From the NCBI GenBank assembly GCA_016748015.1, contig JAAOMT010000586.1:1-64000 (forward strand): a stretch of 64,000 nucleotides of DNA, in the 5' to 3' direction. A program made the position numbers and the translations under genes. The DNA is from Geosiphon pyriformis. Its lineage: Eukaryota > Glomeromycota > Glomeromycetes > Archaeosporales > Geosiphonaceae. The notes below the pieces were generated by a model. That model worked only from the letters and a program-made list of their open reading frames with translations. It did not search any database and had not been told where the DNA came from. Every line of letters starts with the position of its first letter. Position 1 is the first letter of the stretch. Below are positions 671 to 54,519 of the stretch, one piece after another.

Positions 671-2247
671 CTGTATAAGGTAAAATGACAAAGAAAAGAT
701 ATGTGGCGAGTTGTGATATTAACTTTCCACAAAAACCTTATTAGACTCATTGATAAATGGTTCTAACCGTGTAACTAAGGTCTTTTAAACAAAGTAAAAG
801 TATTTAAAGAAGATATTGCTGCTTCTGCCTTTTTCCAGTTCTTACATTATCACTGAACTTCTATTTAAAAAAATGTCAAGCAATAACGCACTACTTTTGG
901 CTGCTGGCCTTTCAAAAATTCTTAACCAAGCTGTTTTGACCCAGGAAGATGCTAAGAAGAAGGCTGGGTTTTCTCGCAAAATAATTGACCTCGACGCCTT
1001 ACATAAAATAAGTTTGGTTGGTGGTAATATTTATTCTGAAAAGGCTATTGCCAATCATCAATCAAGACCAATCTACAAAGTAGGCTCGACTGAAACTGCT
1101 AGTACTCATCAAGTCTTTGTCAAGACCCTGACTGGAAAGACTGTAACTATTGAGGTTAACTCGAGCGATACTATTGATTACCTAAAACAAAAGATCGCAG
1201 CAAAGGAAGGTATCCCCCTAGATCAACAACGCCTTATTTTTGCTGGAAAACAACTTGAAGATGACCACACCGTGGCTGAGTATGATATTCAACGAGAGAG
1301 TACAGTCCATCTCATGTTGCGTATTCGTGGTGGTTATGCTAATCCCAGTATTCATGTTATCAGTTCTAACTGCTTAGATCCACAATTCGACTTTGACTTT
1401 ACCAATATTAAAGATACTAGGAGTTTCACTCGAGGAGTGTTACCCTATGTTCGTCCATGTGGTTGGAACCGAATTGCATTGAAAGTGTCAGATAAATATG
1501 GGTTGGATAATGAATGGCTTGGAGTCTCTTCAACTGCTTGGCCCGTTTCTTACCATGGAACTGGTAAACATAATGCAAAATCAATTGCCGAAGAGGGGTA
1601 TTTGTTGAGTAAAGGAAAACGATTCATGTTTGGCCATGGAATCTATTCAACCCCTGATATAAAGGTTGCCGAGTTATATGCCGAAAAGTTCACCTTTAAA
1701 GGCATTCAATATAGTATTGTTGTGCAGAATAGAGTCAATCCCGCAACACTTGCTCGCATCCCCCGGGAAAAAACAGGTCTTGGTGAATATTGGATATCAT
1801 CCCAAAACGAAGATATCCGCGCATATGGTATCTGCATCAAGAGACTATGATGACAGCGATTTAATTTTGGCTTTCTTTATTGGATGAGGAAACACTATTT
1901 ATAATGTTAGCTTCTAAATTATTAGTTTTTTTACCAAATATGAAATATTTCTCCTATGTTGTATTGTTTATCTACCAAAAGCTCAATGATAGTAGTTTTA
2001 AATTTTTGCTTTTTAATAAAAATTCATATTATGCAAGATAATAAAATTTATTTTGGAAAACTATGGAAATTCACCGACTCTTAACAATTCAAGAATTATA
2101 TTAAAAGACAAATTGGAATTAATTATAGTAATATTTTAGATATTTTGAATCGGTGAATCTGGTGAATGTGGGATAGCCTTGTTAAACAAAACTTCATTAT
2201 TTCAATATATATTCTTTCAAAACAAACTTTATAATATATGTACTCCG
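671..2247 (+). repeat. Segmental duplication, unit 1
   Basis: This unit matches 2811-4495 over promoter, coding sequence and 3' flank. Shared landmarks are the ggtaaaatgacaa / ggtaaagtgataa block near the left end, a conserved leader (around 790-850 and 2953-3013) with the pyrimidine-rich run ctgcctttttcc, and a 3' flank that includes aactatggaaattcac. Offset is about 2.16 kb at the start codons and 2.27 kb at the stops. The difference of 102 bases is fully explained by a 34-residue longer linker in the second gene. Confidence 0.85.
873..1850 (+). CDS. Ubiquitin fused to PARP-like ADP-ribosyltransferase domain, copy 1
   Basis: Single-exon gene of 325 residues. The start at 873 was chosen because the paralogue starts at the same place ([16 protein letters not shown]) after an in-frame stop; an upstream in-frame start at 816 would add 19 residues. 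Residues 1-78 are an unrecognised N-terminal region and linker. Residues 79-154 align end to end with ubiquitin and finish in RIRGG. K6, K11, K27, K29, K33, K48, R42 and I44 are kept, but K63 is Arg and M1 is His. Residues 155-325 look like a PARP-type ART domain: YHGT with H228, GHGIYSTPD with Y258, and GEYWI with E305, matching the H-Y-E triad in order. Seen: motifs and order. Known: such domains move ADP-ribose from NAD+. Inferred: that it is active, and that cleavage after RIRGG could release the ART part. Confidence 0.82.
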
Positions 2248-2286
2248 GGGCTACACAAAATTAAAACGATTATTTCAAAATAAGAT

Positions 2287-2556
2287 ATGTCTGCCGCAAA
2301 GATTATGCATTGGACCAAAAAGGATTGGCGACTTATTCTTTCGACAGTTAAATCCTCTATAAGCACTGATTCGTATGCAAAATTTCGTATATGGTGTCAT
2401 AAAAGTGAGCTTCACAATTCTAATCAAACTGGTCGTATAATTTATCCAATGATTATGACCGCTGAAAAAGCAATATTTCAGGAAAAAAACACTCCAATGT
2501 ACAAGTGCAAACTTGTGAAAGATCTCCAAGATAATCTTGGTTTTGTGACTTTATAA
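2287..2556 (+). CDS. Small hypothetical protein between the duplicated units
   Basis: An 89-residue open frame from ATG, lying between the two duplicated ubiquitin-ART genes and absent after the second one. It has two Trp (HW, DW), basic stretches and no membrane segment or motif I recognise. An almost equally long frame exists on the other strand (2275-2529), so coding status is doubtful. It may be a remnant of a larger gene. No function is proposed. Confidence 0.25.
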   Translation: MSAAKIMHWTKKDWRLILSTVKSSISTDSYAKFRIWCHKSELHNSNQTGRIIYPMIMTAEKAIFQEKNTPMYKCKLVKDLQDNLGFVTL

Positions 2557-2810
2557 TCGCCAATAGAAAATATGTGAAGGAAAGTTAAAAATTGGATTCT
2601 CCAAAACCGAAAGCAAGGAACAGAGGATTAATTGGAGAAGGCAGTCTTTTACGTAGAATGCACTTCCATTGCTCGATTTATTGACTCGATGTTAAAACGT
2701 GTTAAAGAAGTTATAAAAAATAAAGGGTTATGTGACCTAGTGATATACGTTTTTTTTCATTAATGAAGTCATATTAAAAAAATACTGATTAAGCAAGCTA
2801 TCGATCTATA

Positions 2811-4495
2811 ACCGTAGTAAGGTAAAGTGATAAGGAAATAATATGTGGGCGTACAGCGATGTGTGATATGAGCTTTCCAACAAAACCTCAATTCAGGAAA
2901 TAATCTTGTTCATTGGATTTATTAATAAATGCCTATGACTGCGGTCTTTTAAACAAAGTAAAAGTATTTAAAGAAAATATTGGTGCTTCTGCCTTTTTCC
3001 AGTTCTTACACTCTTACTTAGCTTTCATTTAAAAAAATGTCAAGCTATAACGCACTACTTTTGGCTGCTGGCCTTTCAAAAATCCTCGACCTACCTGTTT
3101 TGACCCAGGAAGAGGCAACGCAGAAGCCTGGTTTTTCTCACCAAATAATTAATGTCGACGCCCTACATAAAATAAATTTGGTCGGTGGCAATGTCTATTC
3201 TAACCAAAATACTGAAACTGCTATTGCCAATCATCGACCGAGACCAATCGGAGGTTCGAATGTCGGAACTACCAATCATCAACCAACACCAATCCTCAAC
3301 GGAGGCTCAACTGCTGATATTCCCTTTAATATATTAACAATAAGAGGCACAGGCTGGACTAAACCGAGTGATCAGCCAGAAATAATCTATGTCAAGACCT
3401 TGACTGGAATGACTCTAACTCTTGAGTTTAACTCTAGCGATACTATTGATTGCCTAAAAAAAAAGATCACAGCACAGGAAGGTATCCCCCCAGATCAACA
3501 ACGCCTTTTTATTGCTGGAAAACAACTTGAAGATGACCGCACCCTGTCAGACTATAATATTAACCCAAAGAGTACACTTCATTTGGTGTTGCGTTTGCGT
3601 GGTGGCAATGCTAGTATCCATGTTATCAGTCCTAACTGCTTAGATCCACAATTCGACTTTGACTTTACCAATATTAAAGATACTGAGATTTTCACTCGAG
3701 GAGCGTTTCCCTATGTTCGTCCATGTGGTTGGAAACGAATTGCACTGAAAGTTTCAGATAAATATGGGTTGAATAATGAATGGCTTGGAGTCTCTTCAAC
3801 TGCTTGGCCCGTTTCTTACCATGGAACTGGTAAACATAATGCAAAATCTATTGCCGAAGAGGGGTATTTGTTGAGTAAAGGAAAACGATTCGCGTTTGGC
3901 CATGGAATCTATTCAACTCCTGATATAAAGGTTGCCGAGTTATATGCCGAAAAGTTCACCTTTGGCGGCAATCAATATTGTATTGTTGTGCAGAATAGAG
4001 TCAATCCCGCAACACTTGCTCACGTCCCCCGAGAAAAGACAGGTCTTGGTGAATATTGGATATCACCCCAAAACGAAGATATCCGCGCATATGGTATCTG
4101 CATCAAAAGACTATGATAATAGCGATTCAATTTTGGCTTTCTTTATTGAATGAGGAAACATTATTTATAATGTTGCTAGTCTTTTATCAAATATGAAATA
4201 TTTCTAATATGTGGTATTTGTATCTGCTAAAAGCTCTAAATTTTTATATTAAAGTTTGCTTTTTTAATAAAGATTTCAAATTATGCAAGTTAATTAAATT
4301 AATTTTTGAAAACTATGGAAATTCACTGGCTCTTTACAATTCAAGAATTATATTAAAAGGCCGATAGGAATTATTTATAGTAATATTTTGGATACTTTGA
4401 ATCTGGAATAGCGTTGTTAAATAAAACTTCATCCTATTTCAATGAATATGTTGCTCGAATACAAAAAAATATTCTTTGTAATACATGTACTTTCT
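2811..4495 (+). repeat. Segmental duplication, unit 2
   Basis: Second copy of the unit at 671-2247, in direct orientation, with the same leader, coding sequence and 3' flank. Substitutions and small indels are scattered through both flanks, so the duplication is not recent. Confidence 0.85.
3037..4116 (+). CDS. Ubiquitin fused to PARP-like ADP-ribosyltransferase domain, copy 2
   Basis: Single-exon gene of 359 residues; the ATG at 3037 follows an in-frame TAG, which fixes the start. It has the same architecture as the copy at 873-1850: about 55 shared N-terminal residues, a linker 34 residues longer and rich in Asn, Thr and Pro, then a ubiquitin unit ending LRLRGG, then the ART domain with [13 protein letters not shown] and GEYWI. 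The ubiquitin unit differs from copy 1: K11 is Met, K33 is Gln, K63 is Pro, and the I44-F45 pair reads F-I, while K48, K27, K29, R42 and the RGG tail remain. The ART half is almost identical between copies, so selection seems stronger there. Activity is inferred from motifs only. Confidence 0.82.
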
Positions 4496-36780: not shown

Positions 36781-38362
36781 AAAATTGTTATCACAATGAA
36801 TGGTGGAGAAATAACTGCCAGTCGACGTCTTAAAAAGAAAACAAGTACTAATAAGCGAACGTTTTACTACTGAGATCGCAATACGCCGCTTTGTCAGAAA
36901 ACGTATCTCAATATGTTAGGAATTGGACTCATTTGGAAACCGTCAGAAATCATCTGGCAACGAATGGTATTGTGTCGCGCATTCACAGTAACGTAAAACG
37001 ACTGCCGCGATGGAAAACCAAAATAACCATTGATATTACCATCGCTACCGCCGTGAAGAATTTTCTCGAAAACTATGCTGAAATTCATGGGTTACCAAGT
37101 CCTGGTAAAAATGTTAATCGCATTACTCAATCGTTTACACTCTTGCCAGCTGAAACTAGTTACAAATCGGTCTATCGTAATTTTATTGCAGGTCTTGAAA
37201 ACAATAGCACGTTGAAATTGTTAAAATATGATGCGTTCCGAAGTTATGGCACCAATTAACGCCATATATTCAAATCATGAGTCCAAGAACGGATTTATGT
37301 GACACGTGCCAACATTTTCGGAACGGCCTACAATATAATGCTCGAAAGGAAGAAGCGAAAGATTTACTAAAAAGATACAAAGAACATTTAGTTAAAGGCT
37401 AAATTAGAGAGAAATTATTACAACAAAAATACAAAATTAGCAGAACAACAGAGGAAATTGGTAAACGAACATTTTATAACAAGAGGTAAAGCTGATTATT
37501 GTAGCGTTGATGCTACTGCTCATTATAGTTACGATTGAGCACAAAATGTTCACGTACCCCATTCCGATCAACAGGTAAGTAAAATATATTATCTCAGTCC
37601 GCGTAAAGTACATTTATTTGGTATTCAAGATGAAGCAGTAGGCGAACAAATTAATTACGTTCTCGATGAAGACGAAATTATCGGCAAAGGCCCTAATGGC
37701 ACACTAAGCATGGTATTCGACGGGATTAAGAAATTGAATAGAGGTGAAAAACATTTAAAGATTACTTGTGATAACGCCGGTGGTCAGAATAAAATTAATG
37801 CTACCATTTGATTTTATCTATATTTAGTAGTTTGCAGTTATTATGAAAGTATCGAACTAAATTTCATGGTACCTGGACATACTAAATTCAAATGTGATGG
37901 TAATTAAAAAACTCTAGAAAAACAACTGTAGATTGTGTGGACCATATTGTTGAGGTTGTGAAAAGATCGAGTACAGCAGGATTAAATAAAGCTCAGTGTT
38001 ATGACAACGGAAAAGGCTTTCAATACTTAGAACTTAACTCTGTATTGGGGATTTTCTTTAAAAAATTGAGTAGTTTGCAGAAATACCAGCATTTTCTATT
38101 TGAAGCAACTCGACCTGGAATTGTCAAAGCCCAGCTGGTTGCTAATAGTGCTTTTACTGAATTTAATTTATTGAAAACCAGAAAAGCAACTGTTTCTGAA
38201 ATTACTAAAGAAATTAAATCTTTATCAATTTTAATATTAACACCGCCTCCATTGGATTACAAAAGGCAAGAATACCTTTATCATAATATTAGCCCATTTT
38301 TCAGAGATGAATTTAAAGACATTACTTGTCCCAAGCCAGTATTAAATGTAATCAAGTAAATT
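36781..38362 (+). mobile_element. Decayed transposon-type protein gene (DUF7869-like)
   Basis: Pieces in shifting frames follow the order of a widespread eukaryotic transposon-associated protein family. In order: RNWTHLETVRNHLATNGIVS (about 36915), KNFLENYAEIHGLPSPG, TSYKSVYRNF, MSPRTDLCDTCQHFR with a CxxC pair (37277, new frame), HYSYD then a TGA then AQNVHVPHSDQQV (37521), LSPRKVHLFGIQDEAVGEQI, ITCDNAGGQNKINATI then a TGA, FMVPGHTKFKCDG, and finally an intact frame (37937-38359) with RSSTAGLNKAQ and FFKKLSSLQKYQHF. At least three frameshifts and several stops make it dead. I recall the family as DUF7869; a profile search would settle it. Two stops are TGA where Trp would fit, which leaves open that it belongs to the code-4 block next to it. 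Confidence 0.6.
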
Positions 38363-38406
38363 TTATATTAAACAAAAAAATGTTTAAATAAACTTTGTTT
38401 TCTTAA

Positions 38407-39255
38407 TTAATCGCACTTACGTTCAATAACTAAAATAACTATTTTCTCGTTAATTAATAAGTAAATGCTTAACATAATAACAATAGTAAAAACTGTTCCT
38501 AAACTTATTCAAGGAGTTCAATTAAATTGTTTTTCTCTATTTATTTGGGCTTCTAATCTAGCTAATTCTTCCTTTTTTCTTTGCAATTCTTGTTCGTGCA
38601 GAGGAGTTCCACAAATATTTTTAATTTCTCATTCTTTTTGTTCGATCTCACTTCGTAATTGAGAAATTATTTGCTCCTTTCCTCAGTTTCTTTCTCTTCA
38701 TTCTCTCAATGCTTGTTCTTTATGTTTAAGATAGTCTTTATCACCTCTTCATTTTAAATAGTAAGCTTCAGGATCTCTTAATTTTTCAGCTATTCTTTCG
38801 TTTTCCATGGTGCCAACAAATTTACCGGCTTTATTAAGTGGTCTTCCTTCTCCGCGGTTTTTGCCTCATCATTTTTGTAAAGTGAATTTGGGAAACAGCA
38901 CAAGAGTAATATTATCCTCTTTTCACCCTTTTTCTAGTTGATCTATTTCAGAAAAGCTTTCTCCCCAATTCTTTCGTTTTTCTTTTTCATTCATTAACTT
39001 ATTTTCTTTTCCTACTTGCAGGGAAATATAGAAATCGTGGCAATTAATTTCTTCTTTCATTTTTTGCATTAATACCTGTAATACTTCGCCAAATTCTTTT
39101 CAAATTGAGGGTTCTAGTGATAAGAATTCGTCATTTGAAACACGTTGCTTTGGTTCAATAGTAGTGTATCCAAAAGCTATTTCGTTGTGTAATCTCGAAA
39201 TCACTGCTTTTTTCAGCAATAATATTATCTGCAGTGGGTTGCAAACCTTTTTCGG
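38407..39255 (-). pseudogene. Code-4 ORF: coiled-coil protein with C-terminal membrane segment
   Basis: Open for 282 residues on the minus strand only if TGA is read as Trp. Ten of eleven Trp positions are TGA, for example SIWKEFGE, LQKWWGKN, LKWRGDKD, LREWRERNWGK and FNWTPWISLG. The protein has a basic/Gly segment (GKNRGEGRPLNKAGKFVG), then a long charged coiled coil (LRSEIEQKEWEIKNI, ELQRKKEELARLEAQINREK), then a hydrophobic C-terminal helix (LGTVFTIVIMLSIYLLI), so a tail-anchored or membrane-tethered protein. There is no plausible start. Just upstream, a six-A run seems one base too long, and removing the shift would join it to the HIT-like segment, so this was probably the C-terminal part of one larger protein. 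Under the nuclear code it is riddled with stops. Bacterial (mollicute) origin is inferred from the code. Confidence 0.75.
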
Positions 39256-39268
39256 TTAACTCTACTTG

Positions 39269-39705
39269 CTAGGGAGTGGCTGATTTATATTCTTTTGCTC
39301 AACACTCATTTCCGTAACTTTCTTTGTATTTTGGAACTATACGAGCAAAAAAATGAGGAGAGTTTTGACCAGCAAGGTTTCCTGTTGGTATAGTAAAGCG
39401 GAAGCCTGCAGGATGGTAAACTTTGTCTATCTTTTTCATGGTATCCTTAAGAACTGGCAATATTTCGTTTCATTCATCGATGTTCATAAATCTTACGTCT
39501 TTAATATGCTTTTTCCTTGACATCACACAATGGGCTTTTGCATTGGGACGAATATTGGCAAAAGTAAAAAAACTTCCTCCTAAGTCAAATACATAGCAAT
39601 CATACAAACCCTTTTCGCGAAGAACTACACTGTCACAGCCAAGGCAGGCTTCTTTACAATCAGATTTGAGACAAGCATAATTAGGTGTATTGTCTAAATT
39701 AAAGG
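39269..39705 (-). pseudogene. Code-4 HIT-like segment
   Basis: A minus-strand frame with the layout of HIT-family proteins: FANIRPNAKAHCVMSRKKHI, then IDEWNEILPVLKDTMKKI, GFRFTIPTGNLAGQNSPHFF and ARIVPKY. The Trp in IDEWN and the one in NECWAK are TGA. HIT proteins are small nucleotide hydrolases with a His triad, HxHxH; here the motif reads H-F-F-A-R, so at least the second His is lost and catalysis is doubtful. It begins at a frameshift out of the zinc-ribbon frame near 39700 and ends at TAG 39269-39271. The preceding segment has more Cys pairs (CLKSDCKEACLGC), suggesting one zinc-ribbon/HIT/coiled-coil protein broken by two shifts and one stop. Confidence 0.7.
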
Positions 39706-40121
39706 TAAAATGTGTGGAATTGCTCGCCTTTTTCAATTTTGTTTGAACAATTAGTACACCAAGAACAAACATGGTGTTTGCTGTCTTCATAGACACTAAC
39801 ATCTCAATGAAGATAGATTTTACATTGAGGGCAAGTGGCGACAATTCTGTCTCACTTTCATTGGCCATGCTCGTTTAACCGTTTTACTCTTCAAGGCCAA
39901 TCACCACCCTCTTTATTCTTAAATTTTTCTATAGCTTCTCTAAAAATTCTCTTTTTGTTCCTTTCTCATTTTGCACATTTATTTAGTTTTTGTTGCACCA
40001 TATTTTGTGTGCAATCTCAACAGCAAAATTTGTTGGTTCTTTCTTCAGTGTTAGGTACTGGAACTGAAAAATTATTCTCTTCCTTTGTATTATTACAATT
40101 AAAACATTCTCTTTTAGTCAT
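39699..40121 (-). pseudogene. Code-4 ORF: Cys-rich zinc-ribbon protein
   Basis: From ATG 40121 to TAA 39699 this frame is 140 residues if TGA is Trp, and stops after 34 residues if not. Six of eight Trp are TGA (residues 35, 52, 77, 88, 90, 106); two are TGG (75, 121). It has paired cysteines typical of zinc ribbons: CFNC (6-9), CCWDC (33-37), CPQC (97-100), CSWCTNC (119-125), with a basic helix between (KKRIFREAIEKFKNK). It probably binds zinc; no family named. The reading frame then shifts into the HIT-like segment. Alternatives are a fungal mitochondrial origin, since that code also uses TGA as Trp, but no mitochondrial protein resembles it. Confidence 0.75.
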
Positions 40122-40250
40122 GATTACTTATTAATATAGTAAGTTTTAAGCAAAAAAAAAGAGCAAAATAACTATTTATTTAAAAACGAAAAGAACTTTT
40201 TAAATTAAACTGAGAGTAGCACATTAATATCCCATTAATAAAGCTGAATA

Positions 40251-40422
40251 CAGTCAACTCTTTTTATAAGGACCTTTTTTATAAGGATCCGCTGTTTATA
40301 AGTACCACCTGCGCTTTCCCAAATCGTAGATTCTTAATGATTCTACGCTTCATATAACGACCGCTGCTTATAACGACCGATTTTGCTTTGCCCGAGGTGG
40401 TCGTTATAAAGAGAGTTGACTG
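40251..40422. mobile_element. MITE with TA target duplication (pogo/Tc1-like ends)
   Basis: A 172-base nonautonomous element. Left end cagtcaactctttttataag and right end complement cagtcaactctctttataac form inverted repeats of about 25 bases, flanked by TA on each side (40249-40250, 40423-40424). Inside are repeated ttataaggacc and cttataacgacc motifs, also in inverted arrangement. It has no coding capacity. Termini resemble those of pogo/Tigger-type elements, so a DDE transposase in trans moved it. Confidence 0.85.
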
Positions 40423-40442
40423 TAGATGATATTTTGTTTGTA

Positions 40443-40709
40443 TTAATATTTTTCGTCCAGATGTTTTTGTCTTTTGTTTTGTAATGGTACATCATTATCC
40501 TGCTTTCTTCTCTTAATGTTTATTATTTTTCGTTCTTCTTGGTAAATTTCATAAGTAATTTTTTCTTTATCTAGATATTCCTGGAGAGTTTGGGTATTAT
40601 TGATTTTAAAAACGTATGGAGCAATTTTTTCTCGTTCTTTTTTTAGAATGCTTCTAATAGTACTGTAATTCTTGGGTTCCATGGTGGATTTAATGTAAAC
40701 AAGTTTCAT
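40443..40709 (-). CDS. Small charged hypothetical protein, possibly part of the bacterial-like block
   Basis: An 88-residue minus-strand frame from ATG, very rich in Lys, Glu and Arg (LKKEREKIAPYVFKINN, NIKRRKQDNDVPLQNKRQKH). It has no Trp, so the genetic code cannot be tested. It is on the same strand as the code-4 frames and upstream of them, separated by the MITE, and its composition is like theirs and unlike the AT desert to its right. No family recognised. Confidence 0.4.
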   Translation of the reverse strand: MKLVYIKSTMEPKNYSTIRSILKKEREKIAPYVFKINNTQTLQEYLDKEKITYEIYQEERKIINIKRRKQDNDVPLQNKRQKHLDEKY

Positions 40710-41859
40710 ATTATAATTTTATATAGAGATAGGCCTAATAATAACTGCAAGTAAAACGTTTATCTCATTTTGACACCAAATTTAATACAGATTTAAATAT
40801 AATTCAGCTATTATTTAAAATTATAAAACTTAACAAAAAAATTATAAAATTTTTTAAAATAAATACAGTTTATATATAATCAATTACTTAAGTTAATAAA
40901 GCTATGCTAAATAAAAAACACAAAAGAATTTATTAACAATATTGATATTTTTTAAATTTTAAAAAACTTTTTTTTGTTAAATTAAAACAAATTAGTTAAC
41001 TATTGTTTATATTATTTATAAAAAATATTTTATTTTTAATATTTAAATTCAAAATACTTTTAAGATTTACAATAATAAATTTATTTTTAATAATTAAACT
41101 TTTTTTTTGTATTTAATTCTTAATTTAAAATTTAGTAGCCAAATTTGAATTTAATAGTTTATTAAAATTTTTTGGTATTTAATTCTTAATTTAAAATTCA
41201 GCAGCCAAATTTGAATTTAATAGCTTATTAACATTTTTTATTAAACAGATTTTTTAATTCAAGTTTTAAAAACCAAATTTTTGGTTATAATTATATATAA
41301 TATGATATTAACATATTTTTTAGTTATAAGCTAAAAATTTTGTAAATATACTAAAAGCATTTTTTTAAAACTTAATACAATTAAAAAAAAATCAAATTTC
41401 TCTTATTAAAATTTTTTTTACATAAAAACATGTAATTTAAATCTTTTTTATATTAAACACAAAATATATTAAAATATTTGAAATTATATAACCACAATAA
41501 ACATTTTTTATAAAAAGGTTTCAAACAATAAGTTTTAAAATTAAAAGTTTTCTAATTAATAAATTCAAATTATATATATTTATTAGAATATTAATAGTAA
41601 TCTAAAATAGTTTTAATTAGTTTTAATAATTAATTATATATAGTTTATTATATAATTTATGTTTAATATGTAATAATAAAATTATATAAAATAATTAATA
41701 TTATTAGCAAAAAAATAATAATAAATATTTTATAAATTTATAATATTTATGATTTTTTTAAATAATAATAATTTTTATAAAGCTATTTAAAATATTATTT
41801 ATAAAAAAATCAATTAATTAAAATAATAATAATTTTATTACAAAGTTTAATTTTTTTCT
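40710..41859. other. AT-rich intergenic, contains a 66-base tandem repeat
   Basis: Extremely AT-rich with no gene. A 66-base unit is repeated in tandem at 41109-41174 and 41175-41240. The stretch ends at the 5' side of LINE A. Confidence 0.6.
41109..41240 (+). repeat. Tandem direct repeat, 2 x 66 bases
   Basis: Two adjacent units starting gtatttaattcttaatttaa, each containing ccaaatttgaatttaatag; a few substitutions separate them. Confidence 0.85.
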
Positions 41860-41979
41860 CATTAATCTCCTGACCACAATAAGAGCAGAAGATTTTTTGT
41901 CATAGAAATAGCTTTTTTTTTTATTTCTTATCCTTGGTTTTTACAGTTATTTTTCTTTTTATATTTTTTTTTGTTGCTA

Positions 41980-49915: not shown

Positions 49916-52900
49916 CTATACAGCTATGTGAACTAAAACTGCATCATGAATGTCTGAAAAAAACAAATACTGCTTGCAAAAACCAAAACAAACACTGAAA
50001 GTCTCAACAACACCCAACAAATCAACCACACTGGCAGAAAATCTCGACAACAAACCAGGTACTAAAATGGGAGCCAAATCACCTAAAGGAATTAACCTAT
50101 GTTTTTTCATGTATGTGCAATGTCTCGTATGAACCAACCAAATGTCATCTCTGAAGGCAAGACCCAGAAAACGTGTGAAATCCACAATCTTAAAACTGGC
50201 CACTCTGGGGTCATGAAAGACATTGACAGCCTCATGAAACCAATTATTAAAAACAAAACCCTTGTGAAGAGCCATTAACAATAAGGAACCAGAAACACAG
50301 GATGACAAAAGTCACAATATACTTGAAGAGGCGAGGGATAAGCCAAAAAGAGCCTTCCAAGAGCTCACATGGGACTCCAATAACTGTCACCAAGTAGAAT
50401 CATCAACCTTATAGGAAAACACATAATCTGAAACCTCCACATCACCACAATACAAACATATTACACTAGGGTAAAGTCTATTATAAAGGCACTTTTAAAC
50501 AGCCACAGGCAGCCGACAATGCAAAGTCTTCATAAAATAAGTAAGGGCATTAGCCGAGACTCTGCTGGTAAACCCAGTGGCCATATGCAAATCTGAATGC
50601 CATACCAGAGAAGATTATGACCAATCAACCTCGAAAACCAAATCATCCACCAAAAACCTCGAACCCAAACCAATTTTCCAATGTGCATGGCAAATGGAAC
50701 AAAAAATATCATGAACAAAATGCTTAGAATTGCCAGAAACTGCACCACCATCGGCCACCAAAAAGTGCTTATCCAAGTGAGAAGGAAGAAACCAATCAGA
50801 AATAAAATCAGAACCAGCAATCTCATCAGCATGCTTATTCCCCACCACACTTAAGTAACCTTTAACTTTGTGCCAGCCAACTCTCAAATTCTTCCCACAA
50901 ACAATATTAGCAATGTGCTGGCACTCTATCCAACACTGATTGTGAAAGTCAGAACCCAACAAACCCAATTCAGACTTGCACGCATCCAAGGCAGACTGAC
51001 TATTTGAAAACAGGCAAACAGAACTAGAATGGAGAATGCACTCTAGGGCCAAGATGATAGCTTGCAATTCCACCAAGATAGATGACATCAAACCCGAAAC
51101 ACCAACATTCAAGTCCAGATTAATGTTTTCAAAATAAGCAGCAGCATTAGCTCTACAGCCAACTGTGCCCAGATTCTTCAAAGACCTTTTTATGTAGACA
51201 GACAAACAACCAGTGTCAACCTGTGAGAGATGATAGCAAATAGAAAAAAATACACTAGAACCAAGAATACACGAAGAACCAACTACATCCAAAACTGATG
51301 GGGGAGCAGAAAAGGGAGTCACATCATTGAGATACACAGTAGAAAGCTTAAACCAATCTGGGACAGGGCCATGGGAGTCCAACTTTTTCCACCACTTGAA
51401 TGTGAACCAACTAAAGACAGAACCATGATGATCATAAAGTTGATCAACAAAAGCTATACCATAATGCCAGAGAAAAGGGAGAAAACTAGAAAATCTTGAT
51501 TTGCTCAGAACCTCTGACATGGGCACTTCACCATTGAAGCAAAATGCACTGACAAAAAAGCCACCCAGAGACAATTTACAATTGAAAAAAATGCAAATCA
51601 TGCCTGCCAGAAAGTTATTAGAAGCACTGATACAAATATGAACAGGAGAACTCAACAGGTGAATAGAACGTCAACACAAAACTTGCAAATCATGAGATCT
51701 GTGGGAAAATAAGCAACCCAAAACACCATTGGAATTCGCAAAACTGATAAGGGAGACTACTTTGTTCTCTGACTAAATCTGCAAAAAGAACTTCAGATCA
51801 TAAAAGAAGAGATAGTGAATTGTATTACTAGGAAAATCGAGCGGCAGACCAGACTTAAGCTTTAAATCTCTATGAATCATAGCATCCCATTTGTTGTACA
51901 CACCAACTGGAATGGAGTTAAACTGGGTCCTATAACCAACAATGGAATAAAGTACTGCCAAAACCAAATATAAGAATTGTTTATCTGAAACAGCCTTCCT
52001 CAGAACCAGATTGGTGAAAAACTGAATGTTTGAATGTGCTTTAGCCAAACTAGGCCTTGAAAGGCCCTCTGTTGAAAAAAAAATACCCAAATAATGATGA
52101 AACTTGCTCTTTCTAGCAATAGCAATGGGCACACCACTAATGGAAAGACAAAGAATGCTGATTCTGCTATTAATAAGGATGGCCACTGTCTTGTCATTGA
52201 TCCGAAAAAATTCACTAGCAACATCGAGAATATGTTGAGTGGCACTTTGACTGCTGCCGACCCAAATAGTATCATCGACAAATGCGCCAGCAACAAAAAA
52301 AGTAGAAAGTCTAGCCTGAGACTTAGCACAACCACACCTGGAGACAAAATGAGAGTTAAGTCTATAACCACATGCAATCTTCTGCTGCTTGACTTCACAC
52401 AAGAGAGAATCATAAAATATGTGCCACAAAAGAGGAGAAAAGACCTCTCCTTAATCCAAACCATTATGCACATAATAACTACTCATCAGCCCAAAATTCA
52501 TTATAATTTAATTGGTGTGATTCTGATGAATGCCACCAAAAAACCGAATGAACTTGCCACACATTTTAATCCTGACCAAATATTTCCTAAGATGCTCCCA
52601 GCCAACCAAGTTATACACTTTCTACATGTCTTGTAAAACAAGCCAGAATTCACGGTTCTTTTCCAGAGCATCTTTAACAATAGAACCAATAGCAAAAATG
52701 GGAGATTGAATAGTTGTACTCTTCAAAACTAAGAAGTTGTTACCATGAAGAATGTCAAATACACTACATGCCGAAGAAATCTTATTAGAGAGAATCTTGG
52801 AAAGAATTTTATGAGCCATCTCGATTAAAGCAATAGGATAAGTATTTGTCAGCACATCTTCCCACTTATATGGCTTGGAAATCATCGAGACCCAAGCCTT

Positions 52901-54519
52901 CCTCCAAGAACTGAGTACCAATTCATATAACAAACAAGAATTCAAGAGAACTAAAAGGATATCTAAAACAGATCTATCACAATGCTTCCAAAGTTCATTT
53001 GAAATGCCAGAAAGGCCAGCAGCTTTGCCATCAGACAGATCAGAAACCACTCCAAACAACTCATTAAAACTAATTGAATTCATTACACCAGAAAAAGCTT
53101 CATCAAAAACATAATCCAGAGGCTAATATTGATGACACCAATCACTAGAGACATTAGTAACCACTTGATAGGAGTGAGTCCAACCTTCCATAATTTTGTT
53201 CACCCTAGACTTCACAGGATCAAGTTCCAAAATTAGCTCATCACCCACTACCAAGTGGTCCAAAACTACTTTGCAGAAAGGATGCTCCAAAACACTCCAA
53301 ATAGTATGATCCTTGTTCAACTCAAAGCTCTCCATTTTTTTGTCAATCACTGACCTAATCTGAGACTCTTTAGCATAGACTGATTCTGATAACTTGGACG
53401 AACAGTAAGATTTTCTGATTCTGGCCAAAGCTAACCAAATAGTGTTAAAATGGGAACCCAAGAGAAAAAGAGACTTAATAACAGAGGCATTAGCCAGATC
53501 AAAGCCACCCCACAAATCAAGTAGAGAGACAAACTTCCCATGAAATACCAGACATGACGCTTTAACAATTCTCGACACCAAAAGTTCTAATTTATGAAAC
53601 CTAGAGGATGGCTCATTAAAGACACTATTGTAACCCTTGAACCACTTCTTTCCGAAAACACCTTCAGCTGACAAGCACATTATTTGATGAAAAATGTTTC
53701 ACATTGAATCCAGACCTGAATTTTCTGAAGCAACACAGAACTCATCATGAAACATGGCAGCATTAGCCACCGTATCTTCTTCAAACTTGATCTACTTAGT
53801 CTTATCGGCACCCTTAAAATTATATTTTTAACAATTCTTATTCATCTGTTTATGCAACAAGTTCAGACACATGTCCAGAAGGCCACCAAGACCCACAGAA
53901 ACAGAAATGGCATTATGATTAGTGTTAAAGTACTCATCAACAACAAACACATCACAATCCACTACCGCATTAACCAAATTTGATGAGATAAACAAGTAAT
54001 CAATAGTCTGGTAATACCCTGAGAATTGCTCTATGTTGCTACCTTTGCAAATGAGCTCCCACCCAAAGAATTGACCAAGCCCAACTCGAAACATTTTTTG
54101 AAGCTAACACTCTTATGAGAACTGTCTTTATTAAAATTGTCACCCAAGACGATAAAAAAAGACTCATTAACAGCCTTTGCAATCATAGAATTAACATCAC
54201 TTGCTTGAAAAAAATGTATTTTCAGGGATGCTCCAGTATACAGCCCCACAATCGACACAGAGAGTTTGTTTCCGAAGAGCAACTTGATAGAGAAAAGCTG
54301 GCCAGGAATGTCCAAAATTTTACACACATGCTAAGCCAAAGAATTGTTCATAATTATCACCACACCAGAACCTAAATGACCTATGTCCAAACCCAAAGTA
54401 AAAATCCTGACACCATCAAACTTGTTCATGATCCATGGATGGATCTTACCTTTCAGCTTAGTCTCAGTAACAATCAAAATCAGATTGTCTATTTCCTTAT
54501 GCCAATAAATAACATTCAA
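49916..54519 (-). pseudogene. LINE B ORF2: endonuclease, reverse transcriptase, RNase H remnant
   Basis: APE endonuclease: VTETKLKGKIHP (Glu site), VNESFFIVLGDNFN (Asp), and a terminal motif NTNH where copy A has NTDH, so the late Asp is lost. Reverse transcriptase: DLSDGKAAGLSGISNELW, LQDM with the motif A Asp kept, DGLDQGEVFSPL, AFVDDTIW catalytic box (about 52283-52263). RNase H-like: the first Asp position reads VYIKRS in place of VYMDGS of copy A, ELQAIILALE (Glu kept), SNSQSALDACKS, and GNKHADEIAG. C-terminal part LGLAFRDDIWLVHTRH. The long frames 52429-51773 and 51655-50615 are separated by a frameshift. Confidence 0.75.

Follow-up and report, generated by a model that had tools for sequence, protein, structure and literature searches.

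Organization of the Locus

The window, that is, the whole stretch of 64,000 nucleotides of Geosiphon pyriformis DNA analysed here, contains a minus-strand block at positions 38407-40121 that is read coherently when TGA is taken as tryptophan. An earlier note on this DNA had described three minus-strand frames with 18 in-frame TGA codons, coherent only under genetic code 4 and one of them HIT-like, in a decaying fragment marked by one TAG and two frameshifts. These features have been confirmed by code 4 translation (Table 1), by the match of the 201-residue frame to PF01230 (E 9.5e-7, 29.8 bits against a cut-off of 21.5) and by alignment to a relative on contig C330, which revealed the frameshifts. 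The same note had missed a gene to the left of the block, here termed gene 1, and the many copies present genome-wide. The block forms the right half of one member, truncated and in decay, of a family of inverted-repeat DNA transposons that is dispersed through the genome. In this copy, gene 1 has four frameshifts and carries three TGA and two TGG at its five tryptophan sites. The window copy is a relic: the start of gene 1 and both outer repeats are missing, both gene 1 and gene 2 are frameshifted, and a MITE-like insert is present.

Table 1. Features of the truncated element in the window (positions are those of the window).
Feature	Position	Strand	Basis or remark
Truncated copy of the two-code inverted-repeat transposon; neither outer terminal repeat found	36794-40737	.	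blastn matches to other copies begin at 36793-36817; several stop at 40737
Gene 1: DUF7869 protein (probable transposase), lacking about 50-58 N-terminal residues	36794-38359	+	PF25273, E 7.2e-9; frameshift-aware alignment
Gene 2 (cargo): Cys-rich part, HIT domain and C-terminal helical part, membrane segment by eye	38407-40121	-	Code 4 frames, two frameshifts, one TAG
Gene 2, C-terminal piece: 282 aa, 10 TGA	38407-39255	-	Code 4 translation
In-frame TAG separating the middle and C-terminal pieces of gene 2	39269-39271	-	Read from sequence
Gene 2, middle frame: 201 aa, 2 TGA	39272-39874	-	HIT domain at 39323-39571
Gene 2, N-terminal piece: 140 aa, Cys-rich, 6 TGA	39702-40121	-	Code 4 translation
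MITE-like insert: 176 bp, 26-bp inverted arms (92%), TA flanks	40249-40424	.	In the window copy, absent from the C404 copy
Gene 3: small protein of 88 aa, no Trp	40443-40709	-	Open frame; window copy without the NLS-like PRKKRK stretch seen in several relatives
Gene 3 leader, corresponding to the inner portion of the right inverted repeat, whose outer end is absent	40710-40737	-	Comparison of copies

Gene 2 and Other Cargo in Code 4

When aligned to its C330 relative, with which it shares about 53% identity, window gene 2 is a single protein of approximately 550 residues interrupted by the two frameshifts and the TAG. The 531 aligned window codons include 14 TGA, one TAG and no TAA. The C330 gene forms a single frame, 549 codons long, in which TGA occurs 19 times and TAA once, and its HIT domain scores 34.5 bits. 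At the 19 tryptophan sites of the C330 gene, the window has TGA nine times, TGG twice and other codons eight times. A third copy (L009) has TGA at all 10 of its aligned tryptophan sites. The TGA content of the window gene, the single open frame in C330 and the placement of TGA in L009 indicate together that the pattern is beyond chance. Two further copies are heavily decayed, with 10 TAA, one TAG and no TGA in L008 and four TAA and four TGA in L006. The dN/dS ratio of gene 2 is 0.28 between the window and C330; it is 0.89 between the window and L006 and 0.87 between L005 and L006, which corresponds to decay after landing. As the histidine triad appears incomplete (HFFAR, by eye), activity is doubtful. 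In the genome assembly (124.7 Mb, 406 contigs), seven DNA matches to the block have been detected, the block itself counted, and the three gene 2 pieces gave 17, 21 and 6 protein matches, each including itself.

Differing TGA-rich genes occur beside gene 1 or within elements with the same ends, on an arm free of introns. The Cys-rich/HIT type is present in the window, on C404 near 255 kb, on C318 and on C330, a HAD-like type on C397 (with a membrane tail by eye), on C404 near 585 kb and on C150, and a coiled-coil/zinc-like type on C309, C355 and C294. The HAD-like designation is putative and based on motifs, and searches of Pfam and PDB sequences gave nothing significant for this type. The ratio of TGA to TGG is 19:0 in C330 gene 2 and 3:6 in the C150 HAD-like gene. 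Against PHROGs, the TGA genes were only weakly matched and an open reading frame of L025 gave kinase matches.

Gene 1 and the Use of TGA as Tryptophan

In the family as a whole, gene 1 is an intronless gene for a DUF7869 protein of 584 residues. A genome search using a 171-residue piece as query gave 92 matches on 56 contigs (contigs counted from the listing), fragments and distant matches included. From these, 36 copies (the window and 35 loci) were aligned to the intact C355 copy with frameshifts allowed. Of their 95 in-frame TGA codons, 85 fall at five tryptophan sites and 10 elsewhere; 56 TAA and 14 TAG are also present, many of them in old damaged copies. Each of the five sites shows both TGA and TGG, and on a tree of 30 copies at least 17 switches between the two codons are required (at least 2, 3, 6, 4 and 2 per site), with TAA at eight tryptophan-site codons among these 30 copies. 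The 12 least damaged copies were picked by hand. Eleven are those of the 36 with an identity of 70% or more and no more than one frameshift; the twelfth, L026, has two frameshifts. In this group, 39 of 40 TGA codons lie at tryptophan sites, and TAA and TAG are absent. Two copies outside the group, L022 and L036, have gene 1 without frameshifts, at 50-57% identity and with TAA and TAG present. The TGA share in the 12 copies is 0.66 (40 TGA, 21 TGG), similar to the shares of AAA (0.70), CAA (0.70), GAA (0.79) and TTA (0.60).

Selection on gene 1 has been assessed under translation table 4, with a median pairwise dN/dS of 0.10 over the 81 usable of 120 pairs among 16 chosen copies. Ratios are near 0.1 between copies at dS 0.26-0.7, reach 0.44-0.71 in pairs that include an old damaged copy and stand at 0.75, over 166 codons, in the youngest pair (L011/L033). 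Open frames are present in C309, C355 and C150. The position of TGA at tryptophan sites, its switching with TGG and the dN/dS ratios indicate that gene 1 has been translated with TGA as tryptophan under selection for a long time, its copies decaying after landing. Decay as the origin of the TGA codons has been rejected, since TGA lies at conserved tryptophan sites, swaps with TGG and occurs without TAA or TAG in the 12 least damaged copies. A single integration followed by decay has likewise been rejected, given the low dN/dS and the open frames of C309, C355 and C150.

A related possibility is that a fungal transposon acquired genes from an endobacterium on one occasion and then multiplied, with the TGA genes as inert passengers. 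The variety of cargo between elements would fit this, as would the near-neutral ratios of the two gene 2 pairs involving L006 and of the L011/L033 gene 1 pair. However, code 4 extends beyond the cargo to gene 1 itself, where dN/dS is near 0.1 at dS 0.26-0.7, and the repeated exchange of TGA and TGG needs a long-lasting translated source; inert passengers are regarded as highly improbable.

Several old gene 1 copies (L036, L038, L041, L050 and L052, 51-57% identity) hold many TAA codons, yet each has TGA at one or two tryptophan sites. Their sequences suggest that the use of TGA as tryptophan is old in this gene family. Gene 1 is probably the transposase. Two structure predictions were unusable (mean pLDDT 32.5 and 36.5), the DUF7869 profile matched none of 14 prokaryote control genomes, and a literature search for DUF7869 found nothing.

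Element Ends, Target Duplications and Layout

The inverted repeats of the family read 5'-GGGGCRTGCTGCAACAAAACC..., and the terminal motif TGGGGCRTGCTGCAACAAAACCAGACAAAGTGAAC occurs 74 times in the genome at up to three mismatches, with no occurrence of the reversed control. Inverted pairs of this motif have been found in C294, C309, C330, C355, C280, C81 and C370, where they bound large elements (5.2-8.6 kb) and two short members (423 and 541 bp). Both ends are also present in the L032 element (5.7 kb, with inverted repeats of 317 bp at 86%) and in the L027 element (about 4.1 kb), the large elements measuring 4.1-8.6 kb with about 38% GC. With the ends set at GGGGC/GCCCC, a 4-bp AWWT target duplication is found at nine of nine elements read at both ends, namely ATAT in C330, C309, C355, C81, C370 and L032, ATTT in C294, and AAAT in C280 and L027. 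If the ends are moved one base outward, the same flanks are read as a 2-bp duplication (TA, TT or AA).

The layout varies, in that the left part differs between elements and the arm with gene 3 adjoins gene 1 in some of them. Gene 3 sits at the inner side of the inverted repeat and contains no tryptophan. Among 15 rows compared, several of them truncated, gene 3 of L014, L026, L028, L029 and L031 contains an NLS-like stretch (RKKRK or RKRRK). The short members L058 (C81:37691-38113) and L059 (C370:2169519-2170059) have near-perfect ends, target duplications and 44-46% G+C, with an interior that is shared by eye.

Standard-Code Genes in the Same Elements

On the arm across from the cargo of gene 1, C309 and C355 each carry a gene for which two introns are predicted, at corresponding positions in the two elements (DNA read by eye). 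These start with GTAAGY and GTATGY, end with AG and have TACTAAC or CTAAC in the second intron, and in the matched exons tryptophan is TGG. An open frame of kinase type lies 5' of gene 1 in L025, L032 and C280, with three, three and six TGG, respectively, and no TGA. The L025 frame (1845-3392, plus strand) matches Pkinase at E 9.6e-16, the L032 frame (minus strand) is tied to it by tblastx, and the C280 frame scores 28.7 bits, below the cut-off of 31.7. A run of N separates the kinase frame from gene 1 in L032, and in L025 the right end alone has been found. In L057, the kinase-type standard-code frame upstream of the code 4 gene 1 lies at 3361-3762 (plus strand). These host-type kinase frames, TGG-only in L025, L032 and C280, are possibly Crinkler-type effectors of arbuscular mycorrhizal fungi; unlike such effectors, they are located within or next to a transposon in which the remaining genes follow a different code.

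The kinase genes of L025 and L032 show a dN/dS of 0.21 at a dS of about 2.3, which is saturated, and the dS of their gene 1 copies is much lower (0.58), which indicates that kinase and gene 1 have not always travelled together. Since target duplications and the two inverted repeats are present in C280 and L032, both sets of genes lie inside one element. It is therefore well supported that a single family of elements contains genes of both codes.

This arrangement bears on the proposal that the whole transposon was acquired repeatedly and horizontally from a eukaryote with a nuclear UGA = Trp code. DUF7869 is of eukaryotic character, as are the AWWT duplications, and the occurrence of old copies (45-57% identity, many TAA) alongside young ones would agree with repeated arrival. 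The TGG-only genes in the same elements, on the other hand, imply that the variant code does not extend over the entire element, and a lasting source would be required, so that a eukaryotic donor is considered distinctly unlikely.

Where the TGA Genes Could Be Read

TGA was detected in just four of 146 listed kinase matches of the genome (144 of 597 candidates scored), and a change of the nuclear code has been rejected on this account. Four sites matching a UCA-anticodon pattern were found in the genome, none of them a tRNA by ARAGORN, the pattern being narrow and missing unusual or intron-bearing tRNAs, and no element-borne tRNA was detected in 26 loci or in the window. The transposon could nevertheless be solely nuclear if the fungus decoded UGA in gene 1 and cargo by a special tRNA, UGA-to-UGG editing or programmed recoding. 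Terminal inverted repeats, target duplications, predicted introns, NLS-like stretches and the lack of Shine-Dalgarno-like sequence are all eukaryotic features, and every copy seen belongs to one genome assembly. Opposed to this are the number of TGA codons (up to 19 per gene), the avoidance of TGA by kinase genes, the outcome of the narrow tRNA search and the exclusive use of TGG by the standard-code genes of the same elements. A solely nuclear life is thus judged unlikely.

UGA is read as tryptophan in many fungal mitochondria, and nuclear copies of mitochondrial genes (if UGA = Trp there) or of a mitochondrial plasmid would account for the code on this ground. Such an origin is remote, as it sits poorly with an inverted-repeat element carrying standard-code genes and NLS-like stretches, and the cargo matches no mitochondrial type known to us. 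No cox1 was found in the assembly, so no mitochondrial genome seems to be included, and a literature search on the mitochondrial code of these fungi found nothing.

Mollicute partners of these fungi use code 4, and the known UGA = Trp partner of these fungi is the Mollicute-related endobacterium. With rpoB, the sole marker tried, nothing in the assembly exceeded the cut-off of the bacterial family and three weaker matches contained no TGA; free endobacterial contigs have been rejected by this marker. An integrated endobacterial genome fragment would be expected to hold random bacterial genes, housekeeping ones included, whereas here the same element recurs. The search for endobacterial relatives that the earlier note had proposed yielded no homologue in the collections searched: the TGA genes had no match in viral_contigs, none in genome_contigs (a collection possibly without Mollicutes, as a Mollicute 16S oligo gave zero matches there), and none among plasmids and phages, apart from five weak phage matches to the HIT domain. 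Shine-Dalgarno-like sequence was seen at none of 16 predicted starts (by eye).

Chimeric contigs, which the earlier note had named as the main alternative, or endobacterial contamination have also been considered, and contamination of Glomeromycotina assemblies by endobacteria is described in the parts of PMC10507103 and PMC11423566 that were consulted. Such an artefact is very unlikely, to the point of being negligible, in view of the 92 gene 1 matches on 56 contigs, the target duplications at nine of nine elements (the window copy being without outer repeats) and the rpoB result.

A Proposed Element Between Nucleus and Endosymbiont

The block had been interpreted in the earlier note as an integrated endobacterial fragment. 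The reading of TGA as tryptophan and the location of the DNA within large host contigs have held, but it is not a lone bacterial fragment, being the cargo of a eukaryote-type transposon family. The absence of DUF7869 from the prokaryote controls, the introns predicted in neighbouring genes of two elements and the NLS-like stretches of gene 3 all tell against a single endobacterial fragment. The favoured reading, to which a probability of about 0.5 is assigned, is that expression of the TGA genes takes place where UGA is read as tryptophan, most likely in a Mollicute endobacterium, while copies enter the nuclear genome and decay after insertion. The two-code transposon is well supported; its endobacterial half stands as the best, though unproven, explanation. 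More specifically, and more tentatively, a single mobile element may live in both the fungal nucleus and a Mollicute endosymbiont and may have passed back and forth between their genomes in the course of evolution. Its standard-code genes, which appear to bear introns, would then serve the nucleus, and its UGA = Trp transposase and cargo the bacterium.

As a mechanism, gene 1 would be translated as transposase, and maintained by selection, where UGA stands for tryptophan, most likely inside a Mollicute-related endobacterium that resides in the fungal cytoplasm. Copies of the element, or the transposase protein acting in trans, would reach the fungal nucleus, and insertion would follow. In nuclear copies, gene 1 could not be translated and would decay, while the standard-code host-type genes would be kept and exchanged, so that the element would consist of a nuclear half and an endosymbiont half.

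Several observations count against an endobacterial home for the TGA genes, including the lack of a homologue in the searched collections, of a Shine-Dalgarno-like sequence at the 16 starts and of DUF7869 in the 14 prokaryote controls. The predicted introns and the NLS-like stretches likewise speak for a eukaryotic life. To these are added the 10 of 95 gene 1 TGA codons that lie off the tryptophan sites and the TAA codons of older copies, some also at tryptophan sites.

To our knowledge, there is no precedent for a transposon with its own genes in a code foreign to the host nucleus, beside normally coded genes. If the endobacterium is the source, this would constitute a natural and repeated route by which bacterial symbiont DNA enters a eukaryotic chromosome through a dedicated transposon, and whether genes pass between arbuscular mycorrhizal fungi and the endobacteria they harbour would become directly testable. 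If it is the fungus that decodes the TGA genes, an unknown recoding route would be implied. In either case, standard-code annotation fragments such genes, and other genomes may hide them.

Relation to Known Systems

In the material consulted from PMC3627910, Sola2 elements of the amoebae Dictyostelium and Polysphondylium have the target duplication words ATAT, AAAT and ATTT. The present family resembles them in its terminal inverted repeats and AT-rich 4-bp AWWT duplications with the same three words, and in the occurrence of chimeric elements, with one arm conserved and the other unrelated (PMC3627910, same material). It is unlike Sola2 in having TGA as tryptophan in its own genes, the comparison covering ends, duplications and arm structure. 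Sola-2 families have been reported in the arbuscular mycorrhizal fungus Rhizophagus irregularis and possibly belong to this class of transposons; the main text of that report does not contain the words TGA, genetic code, endobacteria or horizontal (PMC11075540).

For Candidatus Moeniiplasma endobacteria, the sections consulted of PMC10507103 and PMC11423566 give 29-33% GC, in contrast to about 38% for the large elements described here, and gene exchange with hosts (MGMT, PknD). The transfers reported in those sections run from host to bacterium, with no shared transposon mentioned (PMC10507103, PMC11423566).

Other Features of the Window

An intergenic stretch of the window at 41000-41900 has about 10-13% G+C, and fragments at 50615-53698 (minus strand) resemble a broken non-LTR retrotransposon, with RNase H and reverse transcriptase-like frames by eye. 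Near the left edge, two tandem genes (798-1850 and 3022-4116, plus strand) are open in the standard code and appear to encode ubiquitin-ADP-ribosyltransferase-like proteins, as named in the earlier note.
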